DNA of 37,498 nucleotides from Actinomycetes bacterium (GTDB lineage Bacteria; Actinomycetota; Actinomycetes; Nanopelagicales; Nanopelagicaceae), in assembly GCA_014190015.1 (NCBI GenBank), contig BJFT01000010.1, positions 1-37,498 on the forward strand, read 5' to 3'. How positions within the stretch are numbered: position 1 is the first letter of the stretch; the number at the start of each line of letters is the position of its first letter. A program made the translations under genes and the position numbers. The notes below the pieces were generated by a model. The model worked only from the letters and a program-made list of their open reading frames with translations, was not told the DNA's origin and did no database searches. This document shows positions 28,055 to 30,814 of this stretch, piece by piece.

Positions 28055-28972
28055 ATGTCCACACATACATTAAATGATGTACGTGTTGCCTTTGAAAACA
28101 ATTTACATACAAAACGTGATCTTTCTCTTCATACAATCCGCGCCTACGTTGGAGATCTCGAAAGCTTTTTCACTCACATAGAAGCTCTAGGTATCTCAGA
28201 TCTACAGACGCTGGATATTTCACACATTCGTTCATGGCTTGCAAATATTTCAGTAAAAGGTGGAGCTCGCACAACGCTGGCTAGACGGGCAGTCACCATT
28301 CGTTTGTTTACAAAGTGGGCACAGAAGAATGGATATCTAACAAAAGATATTGGCATCACCTTGGCAACACCGAAGGGTCATCGTGTATTGCCAGATGTTC
28401 TAAACGTAAGTGATGCCAGAGATGTAATGGAGTCAATGGCGATGCGTGCCGGTGAAGAAGATTCACCAATTGCCATTCGAGACAGTGCAATTCTAGAAAT
28501 TTTGTATGCAAGCGGTGCGCGAGTTGCAGAATTATGTGGCCTTAATTTTGAAGATATCGATTATGAACGCCAAGCAATTCGCGTACTTGGCAAGGGAAAT
28601 AAAGAGCGGTCAATCCCAATTGGCATTCCAGCAATGAAGGCTCTGAAGAATTGGATTGATAACGCACGCCCGCAAATTGCTTCTGATAAATCTGGTTCAG
28701 CACTTTTCATAGGATTACGTGGCAAACGTATTGATCAGCGAACTGTGCGCACCGTTGTTTATGAAGCACTCAGTGCAATCGAGGGATTAGAAAAATTGGG
28801 ACCACATGCGCTGCGACATTCGGCTGCGACTCATCTTTTAGAAGGCGGCGCGGATCTTCGTACAGTGCAGGAAATTTTGGGGCACGCATCTCTTGCGACA
28901 ACTCAGATTTATACCCATGTTTCTACCGAACGTTTACAAAAGGCGTACAAGCAAGCCCATCCCCGCGCATAA
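28055..28972 (+). CDS. xerC: Tyrosine site-specific recombinase XerC
   Basis: Recombinase that resolves chromosome dimers at dif with XerD. The 305-aa protein has an N-terminal SAM-like DNA-binding domain (TLNDVRVAFENNLHTKRDLSLHTIRAYVGDL) and a catalytic domain with R156 (ASGARVAELCGL), the beta-hairpin Lys (GKGNKERSIPI), H251-x-x-R254 (HALRHSAATHL), the GHASLATTQIYTH box and nucleophile Y286. Its place directly upstream of rpsB is usual for actinobacterial XerC and argues against a phage integrase. A TAATCT box 6 nt before the ATG predicts a leaderless mRNA. Confidence 0.93.
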   Translation: MSTHTLNDVRVAFENNLHTKRDLSLHTIRAYVGDLESFFTHIEALGISDLQTLDISHIRSWLANISVKGGARTTLARRAVTIRLFTKWAQKNGYLTKDIGITLATPKGHRVLPDVLNVSDARDVMESMAMRAGEEDSPIAIRDSAILEILYASGARVAELCGLNFEDIDYERQAIRVLGKGNKERSIPIGIPAMKALKNWIDNARPQIASDKSGSALFIGLRGKRIDQRTVRTVVYEALSAIEGLEKLGPHALRHSAATHLLEGGADLRTVQEILGHASLATTQIYTHVSTERLQKAYKQAHPRA

Positions 28973-28979
28973 AGAGTGG

Positions 28980-29008
28980 ATTTTGCACTCCTGATCCTCA
29001 GGTAAGAT
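28980..29008 (+). promoter_or_regulatory. Predicted rpsB promoter
   Basis: ATTTTG (28980-28985), 17-bp spacer, TAAGAT (29003-29008). Transcription would begin near 29015, just before the first leader hairpin. The -35 box is weak; the TANNNT box is good. A 5-bp GAGTG/CACTC hairpin overlaps this region but has no T-run, so I do not call a terminator for xerC. Confidence 0.4.
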
Positions 29009-29014
29009 TTCACC

Positions 29015-29166
29015 CGCACCAGAGCAATCTGGTGACTTCTCAGCACTCATTCGACTTAGTCGAAAATCATTTCGGTCCAGTTCGCTGGTAGATGACGAGT
29101 GCGACGGGTTTAACAAATTGTTAAACCATTAACCGAGCGGGTTATTTTTGCTAAGCAGAAATAACC
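29015..29166 (+). promoter_or_regulatory. Structured rpsB 5' leader (candidate cis-regulatory RNA)
   Basis: Five helices can be read by eye. H1 29017-29034: CACCAGA, GNRA loop GCAA, TCTGGTG. A junction stem GCACTC (29043-29048) with GAGTGC (29097-29102) encloses H2 29050-29064 (TTCGAC, TTA, GTCGAA) and H3 29077-29088 (CCAG, UUCG loop, CTGG). H4 29107-29127: GGTTTAACA, AAT, TGTTAAACC. H5 29140-29166: GGTTATTTTTGC, TAA, GCAGAAATAACC, ending 4 nt before the AAGGAG of rpsB. A competing stem TAACC (29130-29134) with GGTTA (29140-29144) followed by TTTTT resembles a terminator and excludes H5. Autoregulation by S2 or a translation signal is plausible; I cannot match a named family. Confidence 0.65.
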
Positions 29167-29185
29167 TATGAAGGAGCACGCCATC

Positions 29186-29986
29186 ATGGCTGTTGTAACA
29201 ATGCGAGAACTCCTCGACAGTGGAGTCCACTTCGGACATCAAACACGTCGCTGGAATCCAAAGATGAAGCGCTTTATTTTCACAGAGCGCAATGGCATCT
29301 ACATCATCGATATCCAACAATCCCTTGCACTAATTGATAGCGCATACGAATTTGTTAAGGACGTCGTTGCAAAGGGCGGACACGTTTTGTTCGTCGGAAC
29401 AAAGAAAGCAGCACAAGAGCCAATCATCGCTCAAGCTGCACGAGTTGGAATGCCAACAGTGACTGAGCGCTGGCTCGGCGGTATGTTGACTAACTTCCCA
29501 ACTGTTTACAGGCGTATTCAGCGCCTTAAGGAACTAGAAGCTCTTGAAGCAACTAATGACATGTTGCTTACAAAGAAAGAACTTCTCGTACTCCGTCGTG
29601 AGCGCGAAAAACTACACAAGAACCTTGATGGAATTCGCAACATGACTAAGTTGCCAAGTGCAATTTGGGTTGTAGATACCAAGAAAGAGCACCTAGCTGT
29701 CGCTGAAGCTAAGAAGCTCGGCATTCCAGTTATTGCCATCTTGGATACAAATTGCGATCCAGACGAAGTTGATTTCAAGATTCCAGGTAATGACGATGCA
29801 ATCCGTTCAATTGGATTACTTACTCGTGTAATTACTGATGCAATTGCAGCGGGCTTACAAGCACGTTCTGCAGTTGTAAAAGAAGAAGCTAAAACTGAGA
29901 CTCCAGCAGTTGCTGCGGGCGAGCCATTAGCTGATTGGGAAAAAGAAGTAATTGATGCAGCACCAACAACTCCAGTGGAGGCTTAA
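29186..29986 (+). CDS. rpsB: 30S ribosomal protein S2
   Basis: Small-subunit protein. I placed the start at ATG 29186 ([20 protein letters not shown]), 9 nt after AAGGAG; an in-frame ATG at 29168 would consume that ribosome binding site. The 266-aa product has the S2 signatures [23 protein letters not shown] and a typical FPTVYRRI region, [10 protein letters not shown], and [29 protein letters not shown], plus a short acidic C-terminal tail. It leads the rpsB-tsf pair; tsf begins 3 bp after its stop. Confidence 0.97.
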
Positions 29987-29989
29987 CAC

Positions 29990-30814
29990 GTGGCGTATTC
30001 AGCAGAAGATGTAAAGAGACTGCGTGAAGCAACTGCAGCAGGAATGCTCGATTGCAAAAAAGCACTTGATGAAGCAAATGGTGACTACGACAAAGCTGTA
30101 GAAATCATTCGCGTAAAAGGTCTTAAGGGCGTAACAAAGCGCGAAGGCCGTTTAACATCAAATGGTTTAGTTGTCGCTAAGGTTTCAGGAGATGTCGGTG
30201 TAATGCTCGAACTGAACTGTGAAACTGACTTCGTTGCAAAAGGCGATCGCTTTATTGCACTCGGAGATGAATTAGTAGATCACCTTCTTTCTTCAAAAAC
30301 AGAGAGCGTCGAAGCATTTCTTGCTTCAACAATGTCAGATGGCAAAACTGTCCAATCTGTCATCGATGAAGGTAATGCAACACTTGGTGAAAAGATCGAA
30401 ATTCGCAACGTTGCAGTTGTAAATGGCCCAGTTGGTTTGTATTTGCACAAGACAAGCCCAGATCTACCTCCACAAGTTGGCGTTCTAGTTTCACTCGTTA
30501 AAGAAGCAGCTGAAGTTGGTAAAGATGTTGCACAGCACATCGCAGCTTTTGCTCCTAAGTTCGTAAATCGTGAAGATGTTCCAGCGGATCTGATCGAGAA
30601 CGAGCGTCGCATTGCTGAAGAAACGGCTCGCGAAGAGGGCAAGCCAGAAGCATCGCTTTCAAAAATCATTGAGGGTCGTGTCACTGGCTTCGTAAAAGAA
30701 GTTAGCTTGATCGAACAAGCATTCGCTAAGGATGCGAAGAAGACTGTGAAACAAATCCTCGATGAAGCAGGAACCGCCGTCAAGGCATTCCACCGTTTCC
30801 GCGTAGGACAGTAA
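29990..30814 (+). CDS. tsf: Elongation factor Ts
   Basis: Guanine nucleotide exchange factor for EF-Tu. The 274-aa protein has the N-terminal UBA-like domain [26 protein letters not shown] and the EF-Tu-contacting TDFVA motif ([12 protein letters not shown]), then two core subdomains with [10 protein letters not shown]. It starts with GTG 29990, using GGAGG at the very end of rpsB (8-nt spacing). Length and layout are normal for Actinobacteria. Confidence 0.97.

Follow-up and report, generated by a model that had tools for sequence, protein, structure and literature searches.

What is the function of the long, highly folded RNA that precedes the gene for ribosomal protein uS2 in an actinobacterium, and does it have relatives elsewhere? 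The question was raised by a 37,498-nt stretch of DNA (the window) from a low-GC actinobacterial genome of 1.25 Mb, in which positions 28980-29185 were originally predicted to encode a structured leader. The leader, rpsB and tsf lie on the + strand. The first gene past the leader is rpsB, which codes for uS2 (29186..29986; Pfam Ribosomal_S2, E 1e-93), and it is followed in the same operon by tsf, which codes for EF-Ts (29990..30814; Pfam EF_TS, E 1.3e-64). The gene after tsf belongs to the amino-acid kinases (Pfam) and by its position is taken to be pyrH; 5' of the leader is a gene for a xerC-like recombinase (28055-28972, Pfam). The conserved start of rpsB is at 29186 and not at the ATG at 29168, which is in frame and leads automatic gene callers to place the start 18 nt early, within the Shine-Dalgarno region.

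Fold and conservation of the leader

The 206 nt from 28980 to 29185 fold with a minimum free energy of -65.1 kcal/mol, compared to -46.8 ± 4.3 kcal/mol in dinucleotide shuffles (z = -4.23), and none of the 200 shuffles was equally low. For comparison, rpsB upstream regions were gathered from the genus, the class and the phylum. A first alignment of 12 near relatives, with the structure drawn by hand, contained 46 double-change cells compared to 15 in shuffles, and the model made from it (R1) matched leaders in remoter relatives, including Nonomuraea and Herbidospora. The acI-derived model R2, trained on 36 leaders from the R1 round, matched 79 of 98 loci and in all of them hit the site 5' of rpsB where the leader should be. 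When applied to 393 kb, R2 gave no further match at E<=0.3 beyond the rpsB leaders, the E-values of the covariance models being rough.

The original prediction had called for a covariance-model search for compensatory changes, and these are found across the helices. In the 79-leader alignment, 94.6% of 2953 cells are paired, a double change is seen in 37 of the 40 pairs, and the double-change cells number 873, compared to about 260 in shuffles and 77-131 in controls with slid partners; these counts ignore phylogeny, and they are biased toward the model because the alignment was fitted to the nested helices. Nor has any core helix been destroyed in relatives that keep rpsB. The hairpins, the GCACTC/GAGTGC junction, the TAAGAT box and the TAACC/GGTTA pairing with its TTTTT are all present where the prediction had placed them, and its central claim of a structured, conserved rpsB leader holds.

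Reading from the 5' end, the leader opens with the hairpin P0 (29016..29034), in which 29017-29023 pairs with 29028-29034 (CACCAGA-GCAA-TCTGGTG, with a GCAA loop of the GNRA type). Double changes occur in all seven model pairs of P0 and 96% of its cells are paired in the 79 leaders, while its loop and stem length differ among relatives. The alignments show a conserved linker next, ACUUCUCA at 29035..29042, which reads GACUUCGC in the high-GC relatives. The lower part of P1 is formed by GCACUC (29043..29048) and GAGUGC (29097..29102), with 98.5% of cells paired and double changes in 6/6 pairs, and the upper part by UCAU (29067..29070) and AUGA (29092..29095), with double changes in 3/3. Between them, the internal loop of P1 carries an optional hairpin, P2a (29050..29064), recognized by helix covariation in the 79-leader alignment and short or missing in three loci (L054, L055, L106). 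P1 encloses P3 (29077..29088), a hairpin of the form CCAG-UUCG-CUGG that is followed by U(C/A)G and shows double changes in 4/4 pairs. In one acI leader (L018, reverse strand, about 2326-2536), several tens of nucleotides are inserted in P3, which lengthens the hairpin, and the remaining fold is intact.

After P1 comes the linker GACG (29103..29106), at which the alignments place GGAGG in t44-type leaders and CAGG or CUAGG in other Actinomycetes. Next is P4 (29107..29127), a hairpin of 9 bp with double changes in 9/9 pairs, which is absent from the E. coli leader and from some Streptomyces leaders. Five Streptomyces loci (L075, L080, L082, L101, L129) can be regarded as natural deletions of P4, and in them the strand that follows P4 in the window comes almost directly after the P1 strand, as in E. 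coli. The last hairpin of the window (29140..29166, 12 bp) ends 4 nt 5' of the Shine-Dalgarno sequence AAGGAG, which can be read at 29171..29176. This hairpin is lineage specific: it is preserved by compensation in most acI relatives, others have a different hairpin or none, and Streptomyces has none.

A central pseudoknot

The original prediction listed the parts of the leader correctly and overlooked the pseudoknot at its center. The strand UUCGGU (29071..29076), just before the UUCG hairpin P3, pairs with ACCGAG (29132..29137), which lies after P4 and within a conserved AACC. Although this pairing was left out of the covariance model, standard base pairs make up 95.5% of its cells in the 79 leaders. 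Both strands change together in many lineages, as in CCTAGT/ACTAGG (L109), AGCAGT/ACTGCG (L115), GGCAGT/ACTGAC (L153), ATCGGT/ACCGAT (L068) and TGTGGT/ACCACG (L045), and four loci each carry GCTGGT/ACCGGC (L120, L122, L125, L159) and GTCGGT/ACCGAC (L037, L064, L130, L157). Across 34 loci read by hand, 176 of 204 pseudoknot positions pair, compared to 157 ± 3.4 with the strands swapped; this table was chosen by eye, so it lends support without being independent evidence. Some loci (L089, L112, L105) retain just 3-4 of the pairs, L089 and L112 having three.

The 16S rRNA helix h35 (CUCGU/ACGAG), part of the uS2 site, resembles the pseudoknot in the form CUCGGU/ACCGAG. Sequence mimicry of h35 is unsupported, since the pseudoknot bases vary freely among lineages (for example, GGGGU/ACCCC and CCUAGU/ACUAGG).

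Distribution and promoter

A third model, R3, built from 57 sequences, was run on 198 sampled genomes of the class Actinomycetes. It found the leader in 130 of them, representing 64 of 90 genera, and this is a lower bound set by strict filters; for example, the leader of Nesterenkonia (L118) shows ATCGGT/ACCGAG by eye. An earlier class-wide scan with R2 had given 17 of 198 genomes, held down by the strict filters and a narrow training set. The match lies 18-78 nt 5' of rpsB on the same strand in 26/26 genomes for which the rpsB coordinates are known, and it is the single match in 126 of the 130 positive genomes. The others have a second match (G070:C9:8933-9070, G174:C20:43261-43413, G106:C166:3321-3454 and one in a further genome), which may be a second copy of the rpsB leader, contamination or chance.

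The position of the promoter is fixed as well. The -10 box TAAGAT (29003..29008) corresponds to a TANNNT box that ends 5-8 nt 5' of the first hairpin, class-wide, in 78 of 79 loci, compared to 7.7 expected from shuffles. With this placement the RNA very probably starts at P0, at about 29014-29016 in the window, which agrees with the start predicted originally, immediately 5' of that hairpin.

Relation to the rpsB motif and t44 RNA

The original prediction had mentioned that S2 leaders exist in other phyla; what it missed was the tie to the proteobacterial rpsB/t44 leader, which is laid out in the same way. Meyer et al. (2009) described the rpsB motif as a long P1 with P2 and P3, both of variable length, in which J2-3 forms a pseudoknot with the 3' extension after P1; they reported it from the Alpha- and Gammaproteobacteria, the Cyanobacteria and some Firmicutes and did not name the Actinobacteria (PMC2704228). 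The leader in the window (29016-29166) has this arrangement: it lies directly upstream of rpsB, its long P1 (29043-48/29097-102 and 29067-70/29092-95) has an internal loop carrying P3 (29077-88), and the strand before P3, which is J2-3, is pseudoknotted past P1 (29071-76/29132-37). Actinomycetes leaders differ from the motif in adding P0, the optional P2a within P1 and P4 before the 3' strand of the pseudoknot, and in replacing the GGAGG that follows P1. Of the conserved 3' core GGAGG...AACC, the class keeps AACC and has GACG or CAGG in place of GGAGG.

The rpsB leader of E. coli MG1655 shows the layout of the rpsB motif and is t44 (RF00127, 83.5 bits; also called tff), which Rfam still types as an sRNA gene. 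It reads ACGUAUC-GGCA-CAUAUUCC-GGGGU-GCCCUUUGGGG-UC-GGUAAUAUG-GAUACGU-GGAGG-CAUA-ACCCC and shares with the window leader the order of the parts, the NNGGU-hairpin-UC core and the AACC strand, whereas the sequence differs and the window has extra hairpins. An Rfam scan of the window reported no family, RF00127 included, even at E<=10. In 118 Actinomycetota genomes, the t44 model gave 12 matches at E<=1, all below the gathering cut-off of 44 bits (the best, 37.2 bits, is outside the class Actinomycetes), and no leader from the class Actinomycetes was scored. By hand comparison of positions, 10 of the 12 matches are immediately 5' of rpsB, all in other classes. The t44 control search also matched in Thermotoga maritima.

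The deep classes of the phylum provide the connection. The t44-type core GCGGAGG..AACC is present in 36 of 60 rpsB upstream regions from deep-class Actinomycetota, compared to 1.2 expected. In 36 of these regions, a strand forms 4.83 pseudoknot pairs on average with its own partner, a value not reached in any of 2000 swaps, and 4.53 with swapped partners; the number of leaders with at least five pairs (20, compared to 16.7 when swapped) is not distinctive. From the other direction, the best match of the acI-derived model R2 coincides with the leader for 14 of 25 deep-class loci, compared to 2.6 expected, and the model scores the E. coli leader at chance level only. Intermediates are found too: L187 combines P0 and AAUUCGCACGCCC in the Actinomycetes style with GGCGGAGG..AACCGA in the t44 style and is without P4, and L179 and L183 have GGAGG and P4 together. 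In deep-class leaders such as L181, L185, L197, L205, L211 and L218, the conserved GGAGG after P1 resembles a Shine-Dalgarno sequence upstream of the real one, and in t44-type leaders it may be a decoy or standby site that was lost in the class Actinomycetes.

One could consider the leader an independent, convergent S2 leader that is merely similar to the rpsB/t44 motif, since no sequence model matches both the class-Actinomycetes form and t44 and a narrow distribution is reported for most leaders of ribosomal protein genes (PMC7247131). Convergence is nevertheless rather unlikely in our estimation, given that position, helix order and pseudoknot are the same, that NNGGU-[hairpin]-UC and AACC occur in both, and that graded intermediates exist inside the phylum. 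The common layout, the deep-class t44 matches and the intermediates argue instead for one family with a remodeled Actinomycetes branch and not for a new kind of leader.

How the leader may act

It is likely that the leader is a divergent, Actinomycetes-type form of the uS2 autoregulatory leader (rpsB motif/t44), in which excess S2 stabilizes the pseudoknot and lowers the translation of rpsB-tsf. The RNA very probably begins at P0, and the long, interrupted P1 carries P3. The UUCGGU before P3 pairs with the ACCGAG past P1 to give a pseudoknot shortly 5' of the ribosome binding site. When present in excess of free 30S subunits, uS2 would bind the leader and stabilize the fold, with less ribosome loading on rpsB, and tsf would be lowered through coupling. 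The identification of uS2 as the presumed ligand draws on homology to the S2-regulated leader of E. coli, where excess uS2, with bS1, represses at translation in vivo; binding and repression by uS2 are demonstrated for E. coli only (PMC10931766).

Control is expected at translation initiation because there is no conserved terminator and because many Streptomyces pseudoknot strands end about 6 nt before the Shine-Dalgarno sequence (ACCGAG-aaaccc-AAGGAG). In the window, about 48 nt separate the 3' strand of the pseudoknot from the start codon, with the 12-bp hairpin between, so that it is less evident here than in Streptomyces how the pseudoknot would directly block the ribosome binding site. 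A stabilized pseudoknot acting on translation would be the simplest model.

The same fold could respond to EF-Ts, or to uS2 with bS1, instead of uS2 alone. EF-Ts is not known to be an mRNA-binding repressor; the leader always lies directly 5' of rpsB, and its E. coli homolog responds to uS2. Such a ligand is thus improbable, even though tsf lies in the operon and uS2 needs bS1 to repress through the E. coli leader efficiently (PMC10931766).

There is also little probability that the leader is a constitutive structural 5' UTR that responds to no regulatory ligand and serves to stabilize the mRNA or as a ribosome standby site. A hairpin at the extreme 5' end could shield the mRNA, but the conserved pseudoknot and internal-loop nucleotides exceed what stability needs, and the homologous leader is one of demonstrated autoregulation.

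Finally, the original prediction had proposed two mutually exclusive 3' forms, and the alternative pairing is present in the window as UAACC-GAGCG-GGUUA-UUUUU (29130..29149), which would terminate transcription when neither the pseudoknot nor the 12-bp hairpin forms; the GGTT of the last hairpin also faces AACC in most acI relatives. Such an attenuator is very improbable, and the terminator/antiterminator switch was rejected for low stability and poor conservation: the stem has 5 bp and -3.9 kcal/mol, whereas the last hairpin reaches about -15 kcal/mol, the 9 bases that follow the stem include no more than 2-3 T in many relatives (L013-L016, L019, L036), the stem is missing or broken in L057, L036, L053-L056 and L060-L062 and missing class-wide, and a consensus scan for terminators called none. 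We found no conserved, stable hairpin with a U-run that competes with another structure, and judge the form in the window nonfunctional. In L057, the alternative stem is broken while the last hairpin is preserved by compensation. The presence of both strands is explained by the pseudoknot, which constrains AACC, and by the last hairpin, which constrains GGTT.

Significance and comparison with known leaders

The uS2-responsive reading offers a concrete, testable model of how Streptomyces, mycobacteria and acI, an abundant freshwater lineage, may control an essential ribosome operon. It also means that S2 autoregulation probably has a much greater age and range than current catalogs show. More tentatively, with the odds slightly against it, the uS2 leader may be among the oldest and widest of ribosomal protein leaders, descending from the common ancestor of the Proteobacteria, Thermotoga and Actinomycetota and rebuilt in Actinomycetes by loss of GGAGG, insertion of P4 in the pseudoknot connection and locking of P0 to the promoter, with the uS2-responsive pseudoknot kept. 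The leader also suggests that ribosomal protein leaders may be shared among phyla far more widely than current families show, having drifted in sequence below Rfam thresholds.

No earlier Actinobacterial rpsB leader was found in the open-access literature, and the 20 ribosomal protein motifs of one comparative study include no S2 leader (PMC7247131). The Actinobacterial L31 and L17 leaders in that study are likewise cis leaders of ribosomal protein genes found by comparative genomics; they belong to other genes, and the L31 motifs are single hairpins (PMC7247131). A 2021 paper noted that almost nothing was known on ribosomal protein autoregulation in this group (PMC8470358). The mycobacterial rpsO (uS15) leader is likewise an actinobacterial ribosomal protein leader with a pseudoknot 5' of the start site, and it has been shown to act on translation (PMC8470358). 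It differs in gene, protein and structure from the leader described here, for which it serves as a mechanistic precedent only.
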